Positions 22,021 to 62,244 are shown, counted from the first letter of the stretch. The stretch is DNA of 64,000 bases from Nanobdellota archaeon (GCA_021818905.1 JAKASS010000001.1:1-64000), one strand, 5' to 3'. A program made the numbers and translations. The notes: a model not told the origin generated them from the sequence alone.

Positions 22021-22042
22021 AAGATTTTTGCCTCATCAATAA

Positions 22043-22133
22043 AGGGCCCACTGGGATTTGAACCCAGGTCAGATGGTTACTCCATCTGATGCATTCGAAG
22101 CCATCTATCCTATCCGGACTAGACTATGGGCCC
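22043..22133 (-). tRNA. tRNA-Arg(UCG) with a 17-nt intron
   Basis: The minus strand folds as a tRNA with a GGGCCCA/TGGGCCC acceptor stem, D-arm with G18-G19, T-loop TTCAAAT and anticodon stem GATGG/CCATC. The anticodon region is longer than 7 nt, and removing 17 nt between positions 37 and 38 leaves loop CTTCGAA with anticodon TCG. A bulge-helix-bulge fits exactly: central helix CTTC/GGAG, bulges GAA and TAA. The discriminator base is U. CCA is not encoded. Confidence 0.8.
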
Positions 22134-22177
22134 TTCAATATTTCTTATGAAGTTTTAGATATTTATCTGTCTCTTAT

Positions 22178-51998: not shown

Positions 51999-52062
51999 TT
52001 AGTTTTCTACACCAGATATATATTTAAGCAAGATTTTAATTGCTTTGATTATAGATAATATT

Positions 52063-52788
52063 ATGCCAGCAAAAATAATAGCCGTTATGAGCCCTAAGGG
52101 GGGGGTCGGAAAGACGACCGTGGCCGTAAACCTTGCGGCAGCTTTAGCGAGCATCGGAAAGCGCGTCCTTATAGTAGACGCCAATCTTGATACTCCGCAT
52201 GTGGCTATATACTATGGATTTATAGGCTACAAAAACTCGCTTGAGGACGTATTAAATGGCAACATCCAGGTGGATGAAGCCGTCTACAAAACAGAAAACC
52301 AGAATCTTCACATCTTGCCTTCGAGGGTCTTCAAGAATAAAGGGGATGGAAACGCACAGTACAAGATAATAAATCTCTTCCATCATCTCGGCAAAGTGGT
52401 AGACGATTATGATTTTTTAATCCTCGACTCAAAGCCGTCTTCTAACTTGGATTTCATAAAACTTATAAAAAATCCTTCTACGCTAATAGTTTCGATGCCG
52501 GAAATAGCTTCGATGATAGAAGCAAAAAAACTCAACGAAGAAAGCGTGGCTGCGGGAGTAAGGGTGCTCGGGATAGTCTTAAACCGGGTAAATAAAAAGA
52601 TAAGTGGACACATGAACGACGCTGAAGTAAGCAGGATAGTCGAAGCTAAAAACATATGGAAGATACCGGAGGATGCAAACGTGTTTGACGCGCTTAGGAA
52701 AGGAATACCCATCGTATGGCAAAATCAAAAAAGCCCTGCATCAAGATCATTTTTAGAACTTGCAAGAGACATAGCCAGCTGGGGATGA
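52063..52788 (+). CDS. ParA/MinD-family ATPase
   Basis: From ATG 52063 (MPAKIIAVMS) there are 241 residues. The deviant Walker A is SPKGGVGKTTVAVNLAAALA, followed by VLIVDANLDTPHVAIYYG, DYDFLILDSKPSS and VLGIVLNRVNKK. It lacks a long C-terminal amphipathic helix, so it may be nearer to MinD-like regulators than to a membrane-binding MinD. A G8 tract (52098-52105) encodes the Walker A glycines. It is followed two bases later by a small zinc-finger gene. Confidence 0.85.
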   Translation: MPAKIIAVMSPKGGVGKTTVAVNLAAALASIGKRVLIVDANLDTPHVAIYYGFIGYKNSLEDVLNGNIQVDEAVYKTENQNLHILPSRVFKNKGDGNAQYKIINLFHHLGKVVDDYDFLILDSKPSSNLDFIKLIKNPSTLIVSMPEIASMIEAKKLNEESVAAGVRVLGIVLNRVNKKISGHMNDAEVSRIVEAKNIWKIPEDANVFDALRKGIPIVWQNQKSPASRSFLELARDIASWG

Positions 52789-53064: not shown

Positions 53065-53565
53065 ATGGCTAAGGGACAAGGTACGCTCGAACTGCTACTC
53101 GGCTACAGCATAGCTTTCATAATAATCGCTGCGACTTTAGCTATACTCTTCATATTTTACCCGAATATCTTCGCTACCGCGTCGTCTAGCACTTATTCCG
53201 GATTCGCTGGCTTGGTAGTGGCGGGACAGGGGTATTGCAACTCTGGGTGCAATGCCACGGGATTCTATTATATAAGATTCCAGAATCTCCTAAGTGAAAA
53301 TATAAACGTGACTAGGATAACCTTTTTAAGTCCTGGCATCGATCAGAACTTTTCAGATTGTTACAGTTCGATAGAAAATAGGACGGTGATAAAGAATTCA
53401 GCCCTGCCTGACCTATACATACCAAACTTAGGCTATGCCGAATGTAATTTTACCATGCTATTGTCGTCACCTTATTCTGCCTCGGTCGATATTTATTACG
53501 TTCCTTCGAACGATAGTTATTTAATAAGCGAACCGATAGAAATAGCGGGGTCTGTCAGCGGATAA
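53065..53565 (+). CDS. Type IV pilin-like protein
   Basis: The 166-residue protein starts MAKGQGTLELLLGYSIAFII, a class III signal peptide (KGQ) and one helix, then a Ser/Tyr/Asn-rich domain with four cysteines (YCNSGCNATG) and several sequons. It is the first of a run of surface proteins from here to 57.7 kb and lies just downstream of tRNA-Thr. A minor pilin or adhesin subunit is likely. Confidence 0.7.
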   Translation: MAKGQGTLELLLGYSIAFIIIAATLAILFIFYPNIFATASSSTYSGFAGLVVAGQGYCNSGCNATGFYYIRFQNLLSENINVTRITFLSPGIDQNFSDCYSSIENRTVIKNSALPDLYIPNLGYAECNFTMLLSSPYSASVDIYYVPSNDSYLISEPIEIAGSVSG

Positions 53566-53622
53566 TCGCTCTTAATCAAGAATAATAAGATATTTATATC
53601 CTAAGATTTATACTTAAACTTT

Positions 53623-54030
53623 ATGGGGTCATTTAAGTACATAAGAGACAACGAAAGGCTGATGTTCAAGGATAAAGCTGCAAAAAGAGCTTTGCTTCTT
53701 AACGCGGAAAAAGGTTCGATATTAGAAAGAGTCGAAAGACCTACCCGGCTTACAAGGGCGAAGATGCTCGGTTTCAAAGCTAAGGAAGGATACATAATAG
53801 TGCGGGCTAGAGTAGCTAAAGGAAGCTTTAGACGGCCCAGACCAGTTCATGCACGAAGACCTAGCAAGACTGGCTTATATTTCAACCTTGCTGTTAGCAA
53901 GCAAAAAATCGCAGAGAATAGAGCGCAAAAAACCTATAAAAACATGGATGTTCTTGGTTCGTACTTTCTAGTTGAAAACGGCCAGTACAAGTGGTTTGAA
54001 GTAGTCATGCACGACTGGGCGATTAAATAA
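53623..54030 (+). CDS. rpl15e: 50S ribosomal protein eL15, shortened
   Basis: The 135-residue protein matches the core of eL15: ERVERPTRLTRAKMLGFKAK, then EGYIIVRARVAKGSFRRPRP, IAENRAQKTYKNMDVLGSYF and YKWFEVVMHDW. Archaeal eL15 is usually about 190 residues; here the last 50 or so (the RGLT-type tail) are missing, and the following DNA does not encode them. A TATA-like ATTTATAC lies about 15-20 bases upstream of the ATG. The gene is sandwiched between pilin-like genes. Confidence 0.9.
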   Translation: MGSFKYIRDNERLMFKDKAAKRALLLNAEKGSILERVERPTRLTRAKMLGFKAKEGYIIVRARVAKGSFRRPRPVHARRPSKTGLYFNLAVSKQKIAENRAQKTYKNMDVLGSYFLVENGQYKWFEVVMHDWAIK

Positions 54031-54092
54031 GCTACATTTTACATTTCTCTGCTAAAATCAAAACTTAAATTATACGAGAATCAACTATACTC

Positions 54093-54602
54093 ATGACTGG
54101 AAACACCGAGGAATTCATATGGTACGAAGTGCTTTTCGCCCTCATAGTCGCTCTTGTAGTATTCTTCATATTTTACCAGAATTTCTCGGAAGTGTTCCCT
54201 ATAGGCTGCAATAATAACAACTTAGTAGAAAACCAATTCTCTCAGGCATTGTCCGGTACCCCAAATAGAGAGGAAGGCACGCCGCTTTTCAGATGCTACC
54301 TTACTAACGCGTGCTATGATCAGGCTACTGCAAATGTGACCTGCATAACTAATTGGTGCGCATACGATTATTGCATAGACGGTAAGTGTTCAAGCGCTTT
54401 CCAAACCTGTGTACAAAGTCCTACGACGAGCGTGCTTCAAAACTGTAAAGTGCTTAATCCGTCAAATACCGCGGCCCTAGAAAACTGTGATCAAAGCACG
54501 ATAATCGCTGACAATTCAACAGATATACAAAATTGTGACACGAGCATACCGACGTGTATAACCGGGGACGGCCCATCATGCTCCTCCTGTGTAGGCCAAT
54601 AA
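54093..54602 (+). CDS. Cysteine-rich membrane-anchored protein
   Basis: The 169-residue protein has one N-terminal helix (FALIVALVVFFIFYQNF) and an outer domain with about 16 cysteines, including CYLTNAC, CITNWCAYDYC and GPSCSSC. The density of cysteines suggests a disulfide-stabilised surface protein. No family recognised. The stop is one base before the next small gene, so it starts a tight operon of secreted proteins. Confidence 0.6.
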   Translation: MTGNTEEFIWYEVLFALIVALVVFFIFYQNFSEVFPIGCNNNNLVENQFSQALSGTPNREEGTPLFRCYLTNACYDQATANVTCITNWCAYDYCIDGKCSSAFQTCVQSPTTSVLQNCKVLNPSNTAALENCDQSTIIADNSTDIQNCDTSIPTCITGDGPSCSSCVGQ

Positions 54603-54603
54603 T

Positions 54604-54762
54604 ATGGATAAGAAAGGAAGTGTAGAGTGGAGGATAATATGGATGATTATAGTGATAGCCACCGCAATAGTCGCGATATTGATAGTATTGATTTTATATT
54701 ACGCAAGTTCTAGCAGCGGTTCACCATTTACTTACTTTTCTGGATTGTTTGGTGGCCTTTAA
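54604..54762 (+). CDS. Tiny KKG-type single-span protein
   Basis: The 52-residue product reads MDKKGSVEWRIIWMIIVIAT, then an uninterrupted hydrophobic helix to LYYASSSSGS and a short glycine-rich tail. The KKG motif before the helix matches the class III signal of the pilin-like proteins. It overlaps the next start by one base (TAATG). It belongs to the same size class as four minus-strand genes at 59860-60525. Confidence 0.65.
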   Translation: MDKKGSVEWRIIWMIIVIATAIVAILIVLILYYASSSSGSPFTYFSGLFGGL

Positions 54763-55733
54763 TGGTAGAACAAGGCGTACTTCTTGTCCTTGTATCGCTG
54801 ATTATAATAGTCATAGGCGGCGTCATACTTTTCGTCTTTAGTATCTCTTTTGCAACATCTATAGGCGCCACTGACTTCGGCGCTAAATGCTATTTCTCTT
54901 TCGTAGAATACAACGTCGTAGACTCGTTTTTGTATCCGGTCTCTTTTATATCTTCCGCATTGGTAGGCAAGTCTCTAATAAGCGACCCGATCGCGGCTTC
55001 GCAGGTACAGGGAGCATGTACTCAAAATTCGAATGTAAATGCGCAGGATACGTCCACTCTCGCCGAACAGATTTATACAAAAGCCGCTTCGTGTTTCAAT
55101 CTTTTTCAGGGGTCTAATGCGGGTGAAGGAGCAGATATTATATATAGCGGATTAAACCAGTTGTTTGAATGTTACGCCGGTACGATACTTAACAGTGAGA
55201 CTCCTGGCAGTGTTACGACTTACAATGAGCTTATAAATTATATAAATCAAAACTACCCGAACAATGGAAATCCGCTGCAGATAGTATTCATAACCAATGG
55301 AACGGACGGCCTCGCAAATTATACGAACCCTAATGCGCCGGTAGCCAATGGTTCTACTTATGTGATATATTATTTCGGTTATCCCAGTACTTTTTCCTTT
55401 AGCGCTTCCAAAATCACATTGAACGGGGTCTCCGGTACGGACTGCACCCTTAACTTTAACACGCAGTGTGATTATGTCTCGCAGTTCAACGAGCCAGATA
55501 TCGGTTCTGCGATATGCAATATCGATAATCCCACGGTATACAAGAAACTAGGTTCCATAGACAATCCCGTGAGTTCGCTAAGCACGCCGAGCACGCTTTC
55601 ATATGACCCAAAGGACAACGTTATAGGCGCATGTGAGGATTATGTAATTGCTTTCTGTGGCAGATTACTTAATACCATGGTATTAAGCCAGAATAGGGTG
55701 TTTGTCTGTATAACAAACAGTGCGCTCGGTTGA
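54762..55733 (+). CDS. Large secreted protein, paralogue of the next gene
   Basis: The 323-residue protein has a signal anchor (GVLLVLVSLIIIVIGGVILF) and an outer domain with about nine cysteines and many sequons. Its C-terminus, RLLNTMVLSQNRVFVCITNS, resembles the end of the 498-residue protein downstream (FLGRNQIYVCAVA), so the two are distant paralogues. Both are about 30 kDa to 50 kDa outer domains. No family recognised. Surface adhesion is a guess. Confidence 0.55.
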   Translation: MVEQGVLLVLVSLIIIVIGGVILFVFSISFATSIGATDFGAKCYFSFVEYNVVDSFLYPVSFISSALVGKSLISDPIAASQVQGACTQNSNVNAQDTSTLAEQIYTKAASCFNLFQGSNAGEGADIIYSGLNQLFECYAGTILNSETPGSVTTYNELINYINQNYPNNGNPLQIVFITNGTDGLANYTNPNAPVANGSTYVIYYFGYPSTFSFSASKITLNGVSGTDCTLNFNTQCDYVSQFNEPDIGSAICNIDNPTVYKKLGSIDNPVSSLSTPSTLSYDPKDNVIGACEDYVIAFCGRLLNTMVLSQNRVFVCITNSALG

Positions 55734-55768
55734 ACCATTATTTATATTAAAGACAGTTTAAAATCTAT

Positions 55769-57265
55769 ATGGCTGAGACCGGTGGCGAGAATATTGTATT
55801 CCTAATACTCTTCGTCATATTCATATTCGTTATAGTACTTGTTTTTGCCTATTTCCTTCTTTTTGGTTTCGGATTTACTAATGCGACTTCGTGTTACGGC
55901 AGCTCCCAAGTCACAAATTTCTTTTATAACGACCTTTGCATAACCAAGTTCTTCTGCATAGCTACGACGCTAAATGCAATTGGCATTGGGCCGCCATCGA
56001 TCGGTTGCACGCCCGCTACACAAAGTTATACGTCTAGTTCTACTACAGGTCAACTTTTTGCGGGTATAACTGACGCGCTTGGAAATTGTTGGTACCAGTA
56101 TGGGGCTAATTCCGGCTTAGACGTATTGTATAACGGGCCAGGACTTTGTAGCATTGTCGGAGTTTCGTTTAACAACCAAAAAAACCTTACTTTTTATAAT
56201 CTTACGCAATATCTTAAAAGCGCTGCATTCTCAAAACAGATAAGCTGTCTAAATCATACGTCTGTGCAATCGTGCGCCGATCCTCTAACTTCCTTTAATC
56301 CTAATGGATTTAGCTGCGATACCGCCTCGCCGAGCGAGTGTGAGGCTTACTCAACCGATTATTTTTCATGTGAGAGCCAGCAGGGTTATATTCCTACGTA
56401 CAGCGGATATGTCCTTCGAAACATATTTCTCAATGATTCCACAAAGTACAATATAACAACGGCCACTACTGCTGCAAATAATCTTTCTTCGTATCTTTGC
56501 GATGTTTCGCAGGGCTGCTACTTTAATAAGGCTACGCTTAGCTGCACTAATGATACTGGCCAGTCGAATGGCTGCAGTCAGGTTTTCACCAATTTCTGTG
56601 CGGAGACATCGTATGGCTATGACAATTGCACCGCCCAATACGATGCGAATACGGGCGATTACGAAGCGCCAGTAGGCTGCACCCTTGTAGAGCCTGTAAA
56701 TAACGACTCGACCGTTAATGTCTCTTATTTTGATTACCTTGCGCCCGGTGTAAACCTTATATACAACTACAAAAATAAGACCAGCGGTAAAACTGAATCG
56801 GTCGGCCCATATTCAAATGTGAGTATAAACGACGCAGAATTATACCTAGTCTATCTTAATAGCTTTTCAAATAGTGCGCTTCCACCAAACACCATCTCAA
56901 TGCCACCAGAATGCGTACCGCAGACTTGGCTTAACAATTATCCGACTTCAGGGATAGAATATCAATGTACCGAAGCATTAGCGGTTTTCGGTTCGGCTAC
57001 GACTGGTCTGGCTTTATCTGGCGGCCCGAGCATAGTTACTTTGGGTGGTCTAGCGGCGACTGGATATCTTTATGGCGCATGCCAGAGGAATAACCTTTGC
57101 AACCAGTATATAGATACTACCGCTACAAATGCTGCCTGGACGGCGATATACACGACAAGCGGGTTACAGGGGTGTATGGACTCTCTTTATGCCGGCTTAC
57201 AAGAACTAGGGGGAGCTAACTTTTTAGGGAGGAATCAGATTTACGTATGCGCAGTCGCGGCTTAA
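55769..57265 (+). CDS. Large cysteine-rich secreted protein
   Basis: The 498-residue protein has an N-terminal helix (IVFLILFVIFIFVIVLVFAY) and a large domain with over 20 cysteines and many NxS/T sites, including NLSSYLCDVSQGCYFNKA and CTNDTGQSNGC. A late helical hydrophobic stretch (GLALSGGPSIVTLGGLAATG) could be a second membrane contact. It shares a C-terminal motif with the 323-residue protein upstream. Its 3' end overlaps the next gene by 19 bases. Confidence 0.55.
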   Translation: MAETGGENIVFLILFVIFIFVIVLVFAYFLLFGFGFTNATSCYGSSQVTNFFYNDLCITKFFCIATTLNAIGIGPPSIGCTPATQSYTSSSTTGQLFAGITDALGNCWYQYGANSGLDVLYNGPGLCSIVGVSFNNQKNLTFYNLTQYLKSAAFSKQISCLNHTSVQSCADPLTSFNPNGFSCDTASPSECEAYSTDYFSCESQQGYIPTYSGYVLRNIFLNDSTKYNITTATTAANNLSSYLCDVSQGCYFNKATLSCTNDTGQSNGCSQVFTNFCAETSYGYDNCTAQYDANTGDYEAPVGCTLVEPVNNDSTVNVSYFDYLAPGVNLIYNYKNKTSGKTESVGPYSNVSINDAELYLVYLNSFSNSALPPNTISMPPECVPQTWLNNYPTSGIEYQCTEALAVFGSATTGLALSGGPSIVTLGGLAATGYLYGACQRNNLCNQYIDTTATNAAWTAIYTTSGLQGCMDSLYAGLQELGGANFLGRNQIYVCAVAA

Positions 57266-57711
57266 ACAAAAAGGGCAGTACCTCAGTAGAGAAGGTAGTG
57301 GTAATAATAATACTAGTGGCCTTCGTAGTGATAGCTTTCGTAATCTTAAGCAACGTTTTCCATTTTTCACTTCTTAGCCTTGGCAAAAGCGTGCCAACGC
57401 TTACCAGCCAGCCAGCCGATTGCGGCTTGACTATAATCAATCAGTTTAACACCAGCCAATCATGCATATACACGCTATCCGTATCGGATGGCAGCCCAGG
57501 GCTTACTTATACCCTATATAACAACGTAAGCGGCAAAATACAAAGCTACGTCGCGGGGGCGAGCACGATAGAATGGAATGCTACGCTGACGAGGGGGCCA
57601 ACGCAAAGATATTACTTGTATGTTTGCAACACGAGCGGTTCAAATGTATCCATAGATGGGTCATTTTATTCTGCGGGCGGATCTGCAGATGTCCTTCTCC
57701 CATGCGGATAA
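57247..57711 (+). CDS. Pilin-like KKG-type membrane-anchored protein
   Basis: The 154-residue protein starts MRSRGLNKKGSTSVEKVVVI, with a KKG class III motif and one helix, then a small beta-rich domain with four cysteines and several sequons (NVSGK, NATLT). It overlaps the large secreted gene upstream by 19 bases and converges with the Hef gene, one base apart. It closes the plus-strand surface operon. Confidence 0.65.
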   Translation: MRSRGLNKKGSTSVEKVVVIIILVAFVVIAFVILSNVFHFSLLSLGKSVPTLTSQPADCGLTIINQFNTSQSCIYTLSVSDGSPGLTYTLYNNVSGKIQSYVAGASTIEWNATLTRGPTQRYYLYVCNTSGSNVSIDGSFYSAGGSADVLLPCG

Positions 57712-57712
57712 G

Positions 57713-59242
57713 CTAAACGAAAGGGTTTAGAGTGCCATCATTTTTAAGGGTCTTAGGATTCTCTTTTATATTTTTTATAAGCTTTTTCATCTTGCTTTCT
57801 TTTCTTTTAGAGACCCAGTAATACCCCTCGTCATTAGTCCCTTCAGTTATAAGTATGAATATTTTGCCCGCATTAAATCTTCCTACCCGCCCTCTTCTTT
57901 GTATAGATCTTATACCGCTTGGGATAGTTTCGTAAAAGACCGCTAGATCCACACCCTTTATCGACATGCCTTCCTCGCTTACGCTTGTAGAGACAAGTAC
58001 GTTGTAAACTCCTGCTTCAAAGTCTTTTATTATATTAACCTGCTCCTTCTGCGAAAGGCCGCCTTTGCCTTGCCCGATGAACTTAACCGGCCTTATGCCT
58101 TTGACACGGCTTACCGAATCGTAAATTACGTCTACTGTGTCCCTATACTGCGTGAAGACTATCGCCTTCTGATCTGTGGAAAAACCTCCAGAAAATATCT
58201 TGTTTATCTCCTCAAGCTTTGGGTGCTCAAGCCCTTCATCCAGTAACTTCTTTGATTTTTCGTACATCCATTTTATTTCAACGGTTTTTACTAGTTCTTT
58301 GTCGGTTTTTGACGTGCCTTCCTTGATCATCTTTTCAAGAAACCTGTTGAATGCTCCTACGCTTTGCGTAGAGATTAGATTGAGTGCATGGTATAATTTC
58401 AAAAGCTTTGAAGTGATTATTATGCCTCTTATGGTATAGAAATTTCGTTTCCCAGAAAACATGCGTGCCTGCAGGCTTTTCTGCAGCATGAGTATCGTCC
58501 TTCTGTTTATCCTGTTCGGTGACGCATCCTTGAGAAGGCCAACGTTCTGAAGGGCAGCGACTTGTTCCTGTATGAATATCTTGAGATAAGAGATTATTTC
58601 CAGTATTTCATTTGGCAATTTTAATCTTATCTCCTCGACTGTTTTAGTTTTTACGTAGGGGGCTACGTCTGGATCGTCTTCTCCTCTTATTTCTACGTTA
58701 GAAATCCCGAGATTCCTGCAGATTAGACTTATCTTTTCCTGCTCCGAAGCCGGAGAAGCCGTCAACCCCAGAATCAAGGGGTGGGCAGATTTTAGCATGT
58801 ATTCTTTGGCTATTTTTACGTAAGCATAATTCCCGACTGTGTGGTGCGCTTCGTCTACTATAAGCAAGCTGAAATCCGAAAAATTTATTATGCCGCGCTC
58901 TATGTCGTTCTCTACCGTTTGTGGGGTTGAGAAAGTCAGCTGTGAACTTTCGTATACATTTTGCCTGTCGCCTTTTTTGGTTTCTCCGCTCGTCATGCCG
59001 AGCGAAACATCCATAAGACCGGAGAAAGTCTTGTAATGCTGGTTTACAAGTGGTTTCGTAGGCGCCAAAAATAACGTCTTTGAACCCTTATATTTGCTCA
59101 GTCTGTAATCCACTACAAGTACGCTTATTACCGTCTTTCCCAAACCTGTAGGAAGCACGACGAGAGTATTGGAATCCTTTGCGGTTTCGAAGATGTTTTT
59201 CTGGTACTCGCGCTCCTCTATTTTTCCTTTTCTGATAAACAT
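57713..59242 (-). CDS. hef: Hef/FANCM-type SF2 helicase without nuclease domain
   Basis: The 509-residue helicase has TGLGKTVISVLVVD (Walker A), FLAPTKPLVNQHY, LLIVDEAHHTVGNYAY, LGLTASPASEQEKI, IVFTQYRDTVDVI, VSTSVSEEGMSIKGVDL and QRRGRVGRFNAG. A helical insert between the RecA domains fits the Hef/FANCM/Mph1 group. The C-terminal XPF-like nuclease and HhH of euryarchaeal Hef are absent, giving helicase-only form. It remodels stalled forks and D-loops. Its start overlaps the stop of the GINS gene. Confidence 0.88.
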   Translation of the reverse strand: MFIRKGKIEEREYQKNIFETAKDSNTLVVLPTGLGKTVISVLVVDYRLSKYKGSKTLFLAPTKPLVNQHYKTFSGLMDVSLGMTSGETKKGDRQNVYESSQLTFSTPQTVENDIERGIINFSDFSLLIVDEAHHTVGNYAYVKIAKEYMLKSAHPLILGLTASPASEQEKISLICRNLGISNVEIRGEDDPDVAPYVKTKTVEEIRLKLPNEILEIISYLKIFIQEQVAALQNVGLLKDASPNRINRRTILMLQKSLQARMFSGKRNFYTIRGIIITSKLLKLYHALNLISTQSVGAFNRFLEKMIKEGTSKTDKELVKTVEIKWMYEKSKKLLDEGLEHPKLEEINKIFSGGFSTDQKAIVFTQYRDTVDVIYDSVSRVKGIRPVKFIGQGKGGLSQKEQVNIIKDFEAGVYNVLVSTSVSEEGMSIKGVDLAVFYETIPSGIRSIQRRGRVGRFNAGKIFILITEGTNDEGYYWVSKRKESKMKKLIKNIKENPKTLKNDGTLNPFV

Positions 59243-59811
59243 CAGACACCTATAGCTTTTCCGCTCTTTATAAGAATATCGGCCACATCTCTATCTATTT
59301 CTACAACGTTCGGAAACGAGAAAGGCCCGTAGGTCTTATTGTTCTTCCACACGAACCGAGGGACGTCGGCTATAATCTTTATGACGACCCTATTTGCATT
59401 GTCTTCGGATTCGACTTTTTGCATCTCTTTTGGAGCGACTTCTTTCACTTCCCTTATGATTTTGCTTTTATGTCCATTGACAAGCTTCAGCATATTATCG
59501 AATAATATCAGTTCTTCCGACGTAAGGTTATTTCTTGCCTGATCTATGTTGGTCCCTTGTATGGTCATATTCGCTATCTTTCCCATCCTTGCGGTTATTA
59601 TCTGGTCTAAGGTGTTTATCGCGTTCTTTATCTGTGTAGATATTTCTTCAGCCCTCTTTAGGTCATCCATTTTTTTTGCTTCTTCCAAAGACTTTTTATT
59701 GATCGCTATGTATTCTTTCATCTCTTCTAGGGTCTCATTAGTCAATTTTGTAAGCGTCCTATCTTCTTGTTCCTGTCTCCTTATGCGAATGAACTCGCTG
59801 TAAGTTATCAT
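59242..59811 (-). CDS. gins51: GINS complex subunit GINS51 (Sld5/Psf1-like)
   Basis: The 189-residue protein has the GINS A-domain helices (MITYSEFIRIRRQEQEDRTL, ITARMGKIANM) and the B-domain VVIKIIADVPRFVWKNN with KTYGPFSFPNVVEIDRDVAD and a final ILIKSGKAIGV. GINS links MCM and GAN/Cdc45 in the replicative helicase. The stop overlaps the Hef start, so replication and fork-repair proteins are coupled. Length is typical. Confidence 0.85.
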   Translation of the reverse strand: MITYSEFIRIRRQEQEDRTLTKLTNETLEEMKEYIAINKKSLEEAKKMDDLKRAEEISTQIKNAINTLDQIITARMGKIANMTIQGTNIDQARNNLTSEELILFDNMLKLVNGHKSKIIREVKEVAPKEMQKVESEDNANRVVIKIIADVPRFVWKNNKTYGPFSFPNVVEIDRDVADILIKSGKAIGV

Positions 59812-59859
59812 ATCTAATTATTATCCTGTTCACTGAATATAAGTTTATTCTGGTTTGTC

Positions 59860-60048
59860 TCAGCTCGTACTATTCAATCCGCCGGTGACCATATGCGCGA
59901 AGCCACCGAAAAAGTTCGATATATCCGTCACTATCGTACCCGGCCCCACTAGAAGTATGTAAACCACTACTACCGTTATGCCTAACGCTATCGCTATGAT
60001 ATAATAAAGCGTGGCTTCAGTCACTCCCTTCTTATTAAGTCTCAGCAT
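59860..60048 (-). CDS. Tiny KKG-type single-span protein
   Basis: The 62-residue product starts MLRLNKKGVTEATLYYIIAI, one helix, then a small tail with GPGTIVTDISNFFGGF. The NKKG motif fits a class III signal peptide. It lies four bases after the stop of the next upstream gene and is the last of four similar minus-strand genes before GINS51. Confidence 0.65.
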   Translation of the reverse strand: MLRLNKKGVTEATLYYIIAIALGITVVVVYILLVGPGTIVTDISNFFGGFAHMVTGGLNSTS

Positions 60049-60052
60049 ATCG

Positions 60053-60196
60053 TTATCCGAACGGGTTTGGAATGGGCGGGAATAGTTTTGCCGCCCCTCC
60101 GAAGACTATAAGGTAGAATATCACTATGACTATCCCTATTACGATTATTATTATAAGGAGAAGCACGTAATCTGTCACGCCTTTTTTATTAAGCAT
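60053..60196 (-). CDS. Tiny NKKG-type single-span protein
   Basis: The 47-residue product starts MLNKKGVTDYVLLLIIIIVI, followed by a short Pro-rich end (PPIPNPFG). It shares the NKKGVT start with the gene downstream at 59860, which suggests recent duplication. It overlaps the upstream gene by eight bases. Too short for routine gene finding, but the frame, spacing and repeated motif support it. Confidence 0.65.
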   Translation of the reverse strand: MLNKKGVTDYVLLLIIIIVIGIVIVIFYLIVFGGAAKLFPPIPNPFG

Positions 60197-60359
60197 ATTT
60201 ACCGCCGTTAATACTTGCAGCAGAGAAAAAAGAACTAAAAAGATTAGATATCTTGTACGGAGAAAAGAATTCCAAGAATATTATTACAAGCAAAATCGCT
60301 ATTATAAGAAGGATTATGTAAAGAAACGTGCTACCTTGTATAGATGCTTTCTTATCCAT
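60189..60359 (-). CDS. Tiny KK-type single-span protein
   Basis: From ATG 60359 (MDKKASIQGSTFLYIILLII) the product has 56 residues with one long helix and a Ser/Phe-rich tail. The conserved Gly of the KKG motif is Ala here, so processing by prepilin peptidase is less certain. It overlaps both neighbours by eight bases, showing tight translational coupling. Confidence 0.6.
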   Translation of the reverse strand: MDKKASIQGSTFLYIILLIIAILLVIIFLEFFSPYKISNLFSSFFSAASINGGKYA

Positions 60360-60525
60360 TGCCAAAAAGCCAGCTGAAGGAAAGCGCTTTGAATATCGAG
60401 TTCCCCAGACTTGCACCACCGCTGCTGAAATAAAGAGCTATGACTACTCCGACAAGAAGCACGATTATCGCTATTACTATAGCTATTATTTCTGTTATCG
60501 GCATCTCTCCCTTTTTGTTTACCAT
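60352..60525 (-). CDS. Tiny NKKG-type single-span protein
   Basis: The 57-residue product starts MVNKKGEMPITEIIAIVIAI, has one helix and a tail SSGGASLGNSIFKALSFSWL. Glu follows the KKG motif as in classical pilins (Glu at +1 or +5 helps assembly). It starts three bases after the stop of the 571-residue gene, so all four tiny genes appear to be in its operon. Confidence 0.65.
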   Translation of the reverse strand: MVNKKGEMPITEIIAIVIAIIVLLVGVVIALYFSSGGASLGNSIFKALSFSWLFGNG

Positions 60526-60528
60526 GAT

Positions 60529-62244
60529 CTAAAATAAAGGATTGTCAAAATTCGAAAGCGGACTCAATAATCTTTTCCTTCTCTTGAATTCCTCATAAAT
60601 CAAGGAAGCGTCTTGGTTTGCTCTGAAAAGGCCTACCGCTATCGCGTCTTTCGTTCCAAGCCCCTTATACCTCCTGTGGCTTACTTCTATTTCGTATAGA
60701 TCTGGGTCAAACGCCCTTTTTTCGCCGGTGCCTACTGCAAGTGACAATGATTTGTTTATGCCGACGAGATCGTCCTTGAAAGACTGGTATATGTCGAAAA
60801 GTGCATAGTTAGAAGCCGGCTTCGCCTTGACATCTTTCTTTTCCGCCTCGGCTATATATCTATCCAGATCTTTCTTTATCACGTTCAATGAAGATACCGA
60901 GACCTGGTCCAGACTCTGAAAAACCGTTTTGTTTACGTATGTTTCTAGTGCTTTTTTGAAAAGGTACCATTCATCCAGTGTAAAGCAGAAAGGCTTTAAT
61001 TTTATCCCAAGTGTTCCTGTGTACTGCGTTCTGTCCTGAGGTACCCCCTTAGGGAAGAACTGCTTCTCTGTAAAACTGAACGAAGTTTCTACCGCTGCTA
61101 CGACCTTTGGACCGTGCTTCTTTAAACTTGTATACAAAAACGACCTGTTGCCTTCCCTAGGCCCTTCTGTAAGCAGCTTACCCAAAGGCGTTACTACGGA
61201 AGGCAGTTCTGGTCCTTTTACACCAAATGCTCTTTTGTACTCTACCTCGTACTCACGCCTATACATCGGTTTTGCCGCCATTAATTCTACCGAAAATTCG
61301 GCTGTCTCCATTATGTCGGGTCTTTTAGATGCATTAAGGTAGTCATTAGCGTTTGTAATCCCCTTGAGATTTATCCTGTTAAGTATGCTCAAAGATTCGG
61401 CAGCCCAGTTTTTATACATCTCATACGCGGCGGCCTGGCTCTTCAGGTATTGGAGAAGCATGTCCCTTCTGTTGCTAAGGTCTCCCTTGCTTATCTTTTT
61501 CCATTCTTCGTATTCTAAAAATCTGTTCCTAAGTATGTTCTTGTACTGCTCATTCTTTTGCATGGACTCTATGTCCTTCAGGCTATTGATAGGATAGAAT
61601 ACCGCCACTAGGTCTATAAAGCCGGCACCACCCTGTCCTTGCGTCGGTGCCCTTGACAATGCACTTAGACTTGCGCCGCCTTTTCTTGCATCAACGTTAT
61701 CGATAAAAATCCTTTTTAACGCGAGGTCGGCTGCGCGCTTCTTTTGAGGATCGCTCGATTCTGCCAGTTTATAAAAAGAGTAGTTTCTATCAAGCTCTTT
61801 GAGCTCGTAAGTTATCGAGATTATTGATTTTACGACGGTGTTAACGCTGCCCAAAAGCTGCATTGCTCTATCTTCCAGCGCCTTTCTCTTCTCAAAAGCC
61901 ATAGTCATAAGGTTAGAAAGCGCGGCTGGATCGACTGATTCCGCGGTTTTTAATTTGTCATTATACCCAAGCGCCTTTAGCTCCTGATTTATCATTTTGT
62001 ATTCGGATTGGAACTGGTATGCGCCTTCTACGTCTAGCGAAAGAAAAAATCCTTCTTGGTTCCCAAGCAGACCTATATCGGGCCGGTTTATCCTCTTAGC
62101 GTATCTTAACTCTGACAGCTCCCCTCGGTAGCGACTATTCAAGCCTGCCGCCCTCAGTTTTAGCTCTTCTATCCAGTTTTTTGCCTCTCTAGGGCTTGAT
62201 GCGGCTATTATTTTCTGGTATCTCCCGATCTCAGCCAAGTTCAT
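60529..62244 (-). CDS. Large soluble protein of unknown function
   Basis: This 571-residue protein has no signal peptide or membrane helix. It is mostly helical, with charged coiled-coil-like stretches (RAAGLNSRYRGELSELRYAK, KRKALEDRAMQLLGS) and a C-terminal half with some beta character, including VVAAVETSFSFTEKQFFPKG. I recognise no domain. It is first in a minus-strand operon with the four tiny KKG-type proteins, so it may serve in their assembly or in a linked cytoplasmic function. It is divergent from the nucleotidyltransferase at 62371. Confidence 0.55.
   Translation of the reverse strand: MNLAEIGRYQKIIAASSPREAKNWIEELKLRAAGLNSRYRGELSELRYAKRINRPDIGLLGNQEGFFLSLDVEGAYQFQSEYKMINQELKALGYNDKLKTAESVDPAALSNLMTMAFEKRKALEDRAMQLLGSVNTVVKSIISITYELKELDRNYSFYKLAESSDPQKKRAADLALKRIFIDNVDARKGGASLSALSRAPTQGQGGAGFIDLVAVFYPINSLKDIESMQKNEQYKNILRNRFLEYEEWKKISKGDLSNRRDMLLQYLKSQAAAYEMYKNWAAESLSILNRINLKGITNANDYLNASKRPDIMETAEFSVELMAAKPMYRREYEVEYKRAFGVKGPELPSVVTPLGKLLTEGPREGNRSFLYTSLKKHGPKVVAAVETSFSFTEKQFFPKGVPQDRTQYTGTLGIKLKPFCFTLDEWYLFKKALETYVNKTVFQSLDQVSVSSLNVIKKDLDRYIAEAEKKDVKAKPASNYALFDIYQSFKDDLVGINKSLSLAVGTGEKRAFDPDLYEIEVSHRRYKGLGTKDAIAVGLFRANQDASLIYEEFKRRKRLLSPLSNFDNPLF

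Follow-up and report, generated by a model that had tools for sequence, protein, structure and literature searches.

Small headless pilin-like proteins and cysteine-rich surface proteins of a Nanobdellota archaeon as probable subunits of a type IV filament machine

What do five proteins of 47-62 residues, each with a single membrane span, build beside large cysteine (Cys)-rich surface proteins in a Nanobdellota archaeon? This study analyzed a stretch of 64,000 nucleotides from this archaeon (GCA_021818905.1, JAKASS010000001.1:1-64000; hereafter the window), in which a cluster of ten such genes occupies positions 53065-60525. The original prediction had read the small proteins as pilin signal sequences lacking a head domain and the cluster as possibly an undescribed filament, surface coat, or host-attachment system. 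Our results suggest that the cluster probably encodes the pilin-type subunits of a DPANN-phylum-specific type IV filament (T4F) machine. A check of the open reading frames (ORFs) against the window located the five small proteins, the 169-, 323-, and 498-residue proteins, and the two larger pilin-like proteins where they had been claimed. The small headless proteins are called minis below, and a slash in a motif marks the end of the leader.

53065..53565, plus strand: pil166, 166 aa, pilin-like, with the canonical class III leader MAKG/QGTLELLLGY and E at +5
54093..54602, plus strand: cys169, 169 aa, a single N-terminal span with 14 Cys outside and without a basic leader
54604..54762, plus strand: mini52, 52 aa, headless pilin-like, MDKKG/SVEWRIIW...SPFxxF
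54762..55733, plus strand: sec323, 323 aa, a surface protein anchored by a single span, 10 Cys
55769..57265, plus strand: cys498, 498 aa, a surface protein anchored by a single span, 24 Cys
57262..57711, plus strand: pil154, about 150 aa, pilin-like, NKKG/STSVEK, E at +5, start possibly at 57247
60352..60525, minus strand: mini57, 57 aa, headless pilin-like, NKKG/EMPITEII...FSWLFGNG
60189..60359, minus strand: mini56, 56 aa, headless pilin-like, DKKA/SIQ...PYK
60053..60196, minus strand: mini47, 47 aa (about 41 aa if cleaved), headless pilin-like, NKKG/VTDY...FYL..PxIPNPFG
59860..60048, minus strand: mini62, 62 aa, headless pilin-like, NKKG/VTEATxYY...GP

All Cys residues of cys169, sec323, and cys498 lie downstream of the N-terminal span. 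The four minus-strand minis had been described as overlapping; mini57/mini56 and mini56/mini47 indeed overlap by 8 nt each, but mini47 and mini62 are separated by a gap of 4 nt.

The minis are genuine genes. A strict scan, which accepted a short ORF with a basic leader and a hydrophobic helix lying outside any longer ORF, found five minis in the region 53.0-60.7 kb, compared with a mean of 0.065 and a maximum of 1 in 200 dinucleotide shuffles, and one mini in positions 1-52 kb of the window. Purifying selection was evident in all ten cluster genes, the proportion of nonsynonymous differences (pN) being well below that of synonymous differences (pS). When the window was compared with close relatives by the Nei-Gojobori method, the dN/dS ratios of the minis were 0.04-0.20 where pS was unsaturated (mini52, 0.07; mini57, 0.04-0.06; mini56, 0.05-0.10; mini47, 0.08-0.20). 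Chance ORFs beside genuine surface-protein genes would also be very short and without a family match, as the minis are. The shuffles, the dN/dS values, and the conservation of the minis, whose orthologues keep their order across the genus and of which mini57 is present in 32/32 family genomes, rule out this explanation, to which we assign practically no probability.

The survey of relatives that the original prediction had called for found the genes present rather than absent: mini57 was detected in every genome examined of the genus (28/28) and of the remaining family (4/4), and cys498 in 27/28 and 4/4, respectively, and in 10 genomes of other families. Within the genus, whose named relatives are metagenome-assembled genomes of 'Ca. 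Parvarchaeota' or 'Nanoarchaeota', the ten genes fall into ten distinct orthologous families, each with characteristic conserved motifs. Alignments of the mini52 and mini47 families comprised 15 and 18 genomes, respectively, and pil166, pil154, mini56, and mini62 were linked or orthologous throughout the genus. The Cys residues are equally well preserved, with 10 invariant across 15 genomes in cys169, 10/10 in sec323, and 23/24 in cys498. In two relatives (L058/L059), the block comprising Gins51 and the helicase has the opposite orientation to that in the window, which leaves all nine core genes in a single codirectional run, cys169-mini52-sec323-cys498-pil154-mini57-mini56-mini47-mini62. The large Cys-rich anchored proteins had been correctly placed on the strand opposite the minus-strand minis; they nevertheless belong to the same conserved run, and in this genus they lack a prepilin leader. 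In two genus members (G015 and G021), the minis stay behind the gene of a 571-aa protein, and the Cys-rich part is located elsewhere.

The N-termini are consistent with pilins. A leader-like N-terminus was present in 14/15 orthologues of pil166, with E at +5 in 14/14 of those, and pil154 has a canonical leader, E at +5 being common among its orthologues. The claim of a pilin signal without a head domain held for mini52, mini62, mini47, and mini57, in which a (K)KG-type leader precedes a hydrophobic helix that keeps an acidic residue across orthologues. This residue is located at +3 in mini52, mini62, and mini47 (sometimes +2 in mini47) and at +6, often also at +1, in mini57; mini56 mostly has none. 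An early acidic residue also occurs near the N-terminus of cys169, sec323, and cys498. Because a basic leader is kept by certain cys169 and cys498 homologues from other families (L123 and L121), loss of the leader in the Cys-rich trio of this genus, whose starts are predicted, is plausible.

The AlphaFold2 model of cys498 (predicted local distance difference test score, pLDDT, 59) comprises a helix at residues 5-32 followed by an ectodomain of partial confidence and had no fold match in the PDB (E>=0.7), and the model of sec323 was poor (pLDDT 40). Profile searches of the PDB with the cys498 and mini57 alignments were empty or at chance level. A kinship between the C-termini of sec323 and cys498 that had been seen by eye was unsupported by profile comparison (13.7%).

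The cys498 profile reached other families of the class and thereby led to loci that carry an assembly ATPase. At L120, L122, and L123, orthologous genes directly follow those of a T2SSE-domain protein of 750-770 aa (the ATPase) and of a membrane protein of 590-680 aa (the presumed platform protein). The order cys169, cys498, mini57, and mini62 directly behind both genes was observed at L122 and L123. Profile hidden Markov models (HMMs) matched, in the window's order, cys169 (1.2e-17), sec323 (1.1e-5, weak), cys498 (9.7e-33), mini57 (0.006), and mini62 (1.5e-7) at L123; the matches at L122 were cys169 (1.8e-11), cys498 (3e-29), mini57 (1.8e-6), and mini62 (1.9e-5), with a 42-aa mini and a 282-aa protein occupying the places of mini52 and sec323. 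HMM matches of mini57 adjoin cys498 in L120-L123, and L121 has an HMM orthologue of mini62 (3.7e-9). The archaeon's own genome encodes orthologues of the ATPase (747 aa, 51-53% identical) and of the platform (705 aa, 35-37% identical) on contig C17. PF00437 matched the own ATPase (8.5e-18) as well as those of L120 and L122-L124; the relatives of this ATPase are GspE2, CpaF, and FlaI, and its closest PDB entry is 2oap, deposited as 'Type II secretion system protein'.

The ATPase is widespread. Matches of the long ATPase at E<=1e-20 were found in 327/330 genomes of the class, a count that includes paralogues, and a close homologue (E<=1e-120) in 254/279 sampled genomes of the phylum. The 12 kb downstream of the ATPase were scanned at 25 loci representing 23 families, and strict minis were present at 14 of them; all 39 minis so found lie on the strand of the ATPase and 0 on the opposite strand, and upstream one mini was found in 66 kb. 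The linkage is thus frequent, not universal, and the count is a lower bound, the strict scan missing minis that are visible by eye (e.g., at L124).

Other genes recur around these loci. On the far side of the ATPase, many families (L140-L143, L147-L149, L151, L152, L154, L155, L157, and L158) carry two or three small multi-span proteins of about 160-220 aa (e.g., MAETTLGNAVEVLSSFGFFDVILPFLLVFTITFGVLEK) and, as a divergent pair, predicted coiled-coil proteins of about 130 and 200 aa; neither set has a clear Pfam family. Paralogous Cys-rich pilins of about 80-160 aa with a K(A/S)QGLPxxTIV-like start occur at L120, L122, L123, L127-L129, L132, L133, L140, and L141, all of them loci of other families; the window's cluster has none. 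The gene of an 813-aa secreted protein (L068:6888-9329) lies immediately upstream of that of the own ATPase on C17; by eye the protein looks like a sedolisin, but Pfam gave no match.

The own genome also encodes one A24 prepilin peptidase (PF01478, 1.0e-14), which adjoins larger KKA/KRG-type proteins on contig C7. In a sister genus (L138/L139), the mini array is followed by Gins51, two KKA proteins, and an A24 peptidase; compared with those on C7, the KKA proteins are 27-35% and the peptidase 53-56% identical. The expectation of a filament or surface system is supported by deep synteny with the T2SSE ATPase, the platform protein, and the prepilin peptidase. Also on C7, near the peptidase, KKA pilin-like proteins are separated by two ORFs that resemble transposases (306 and 296 aa; L066:3760-5719).

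Processing, assembly, filament form, and the tip role we infer as follows. The minis, pil166, and pil154 would enter the membrane, where the A24 peptidase encoded on C7 would cut off the KKG/KKA leader. The 747-aa ATPase and the 705-aa platform encoded on C17 would then draw out the helices and assemble them into a filament or a short stack like a pseudopilus, to which the minis, having no head, would contribute packed helices but no surface domain. A priming or tip complex, locked by disulfides and facing the outside, would be formed by the anchored cys169, sec323, and cys498, whose acidic N-termini may already be, or nearly be, in a mature-like form.

Several observations weigh against a T4F machine. 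The pilin-family profile searches matched no cluster protein: Pfam returned no family, including no Flp/pilin family, for any of the ten, NCBIfam gave nothing above the cut-off and no Flp/pilin family for the eight searched, and a PF04021 search of the own genome had no match in the cluster. The acidic residue of the minis is at +3 or +6 instead of the canonical +5, and a basic residue within the first 12 positions occurs in 0/16 orthologues of cys169, 0/16 of sec323, and 1/17 of cys498. The leader of mini62 has been lost in 7 relatives, which start with MEAIWFY, MESVWFY, or MEEVWYY and have nothing leader-like upstream. The own 705-aa platform protein has no T2SSF match, and its homologues at L122 and L123, to which it is 35-36% identical, match PF00482 weakly, below the cut-off (L122, 3.5e-4; L123, 7.9e-4). 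A nearby strict mini is lacking at 11/25 ATPase loci, and in the own genome the ATPase and platform, the peptidase, and the pilin cluster are on three contigs, their linkage being established via relatives only. Finally, a second own ATPase of 506 aa, FlaI/TadA-type and with two TadC-like proteins beside it on contig C2, could serve these pilins instead. As a candidate motor it was rejected: its identity to the ATPase of the linked loci is only 27%, and its surroundings showed no minis.

The most serious competitor is a pseudopilus of the type II secretion or uptake kind, whose subunits would stay stacked in a short assembly beneath the surface layer and carry proteins or DNA across it. In its favor, the cluster has several different low-copy subunits that are individually conserved and no obvious major pilin, and the deposited name of 2oap points the same way. 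However, no secreted-substrate gene is consistently linked, and the many KAQGLP-type Cys pilins added in other families look like filament diversification; the present data do not separate a pseudopilus from a filament, and we consider the pseudopilus possible but doubtful. The five distinct conserved small transmembrane proteins without a head also resemble accessory subunits of a non-pilus membrane complex (respiratory, transport, or translocon), in which KKG would be a positive-inside anchor; SecD/SecF are encoded upstream in the window, and the leader of mini62 is dispensable in the 7 relatives. The synteny with the ATPase and platform and with the prepilin peptidase, together with the same-strand position of minis downstream of the T2SSE ATPase in 14/25 loci, renders this explanation very improbable.

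A T4F machine thus remains the preferred explanation. In a more specific form, which we regard as rather unlikely, it would lack a single repeated major pilin: five different headless pilins would make up an invariant hetero-assembly as its core, three leaderless disulfide-rich subunits that escape the prepilin peptidase would cap or prime it, and the whole would constitute a near-universal cell-contact apparatus of the phylum. DPANN cells rely on host contact, and we know of no proteins assigned to the pili-like connections of ARMAN cells. Electron cryotomography revealed these connections around the cells, partly emanating from partner cells (PMC4110969). On the basis of the DPANN lifestyle and these connections, contact with host or other cells is the likeliest use of the machine, a speculation that we hold at somewhat less than even chances.

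Two genes flank the cluster:

52045..52788, plus strand: ParA/MinD-type ATPase (Pfam CbiA/AAA_31), adjoining the cluster
60529..62244, minus strand: 571-aa cytoplasmic protein without a Pfam match, followed by mini57 after a gap of 3 nt

The ParA/MinD-type ATPase gene is linked to the cluster in the genus and adjoins mini52 in L138; its product is a possible positioning partner of the machine. The 571-aa gene likely heads one transcript with the four minus-strand minis. Homologues of its protein were found in 53/55 related genomes; its association with the pilin system is uncertain because it does not adjoin the ATPase loci elsewhere. Ordinary genes are interleaved with the cluster, namely those of ribosomal protein L15e (53623), a helicase (57713-59242), and Gins51 (59242-59811). 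Elsewhere in the window, ARAGORN reported a tRNA on the minus strand at 22042-22134 with the four-base anticodon tcga and no amino acid assigned, probably a misparsed serine-like tRNA. The only PF04021 match over the cut-off in the own genome was a 761-aa protein on contig C20 (L067:5629-7914) with a class III signal peptide and a LamG-like domain, perhaps an adhesin.

The claim that the system is of an undescribed kind did not survive comparison with the literature, in which small archaeal type IV pilus (T4P) pilins are known (PMC3875500) and DPANN loci with unrecognisable pilins have been predicted (PMC6393860). In the latter paper (Makarova et al. 2019, Fig. 2A), 'diverse pilins' unlike other archaeal ones were predicted in some DPANN T4P islands and recognised through ATPase/TadC and signal peptides; its text names no mini-pilins, Cys-rich trio, Parvarchaeum cluster, or phylum-wide ATPase. 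A census of 2016 listed one nanoarchaeal ATPase group without identified pilins (PMC4858521), and papers on Parvarchaeales/Parvarchaeota mention only PilA or pili-like structures (PMC10134863, PMC5864196). No description of the mini-pilin and Cys-rich set was found in the openly accessible journal papers searched. Through synteny, concrete pilin candidates are now available for an ATPase that most sampled genomes of the phylum encode in closely homologous form.

Tad/Flp pili (type IVc pili; PMC10191384) comprise a small major pilin, Flp, with the ATPase TadA, the platform TadB/TadC, the prepilin peptidase TadV, and the minor pilins TadE/F; they resemble the cluster in size and architecture alone, and their single major Flp contrasts with the several different minis. 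The own ATPase is nearest to FlaI of the archaellum in NCBIfam, but with 134 bits against a cut-off of 550; no archaellin match occurs in the cluster, and the long ATPase exceeds the 506-aa ATPase of the genome by about 240 aa. Because neither an Flp-family match, nor a FlaI score above the cut-off, nor a PF04021 match was obtained for the cluster or its ATPase, we do not class the system with Tad, the archaellum, or PF04021 pilins. The Epd/MMP1685 pili of Methanococcus maripaludis share the very small pilins and a partial dispersal of the ATPase, platform, and pilin genes over different loci; MMP1685 has 74 aa (62 mature) and the others 67-76 aa, with class III leaders processed by the EppA peptidase (PMC3875500). 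In contrast, the minis are smaller (47-62 aa unprocessed), have the acidic residue at +3/+6, lie side by side in several kinds without a detectable PF04021 match, and are joined by leaderless Cys-rich partners. At a minimum of about 41 aa if cleaved, the minis would belong to the smallest pilins and offer a test of how far a pilin can be reduced and still be assembled.

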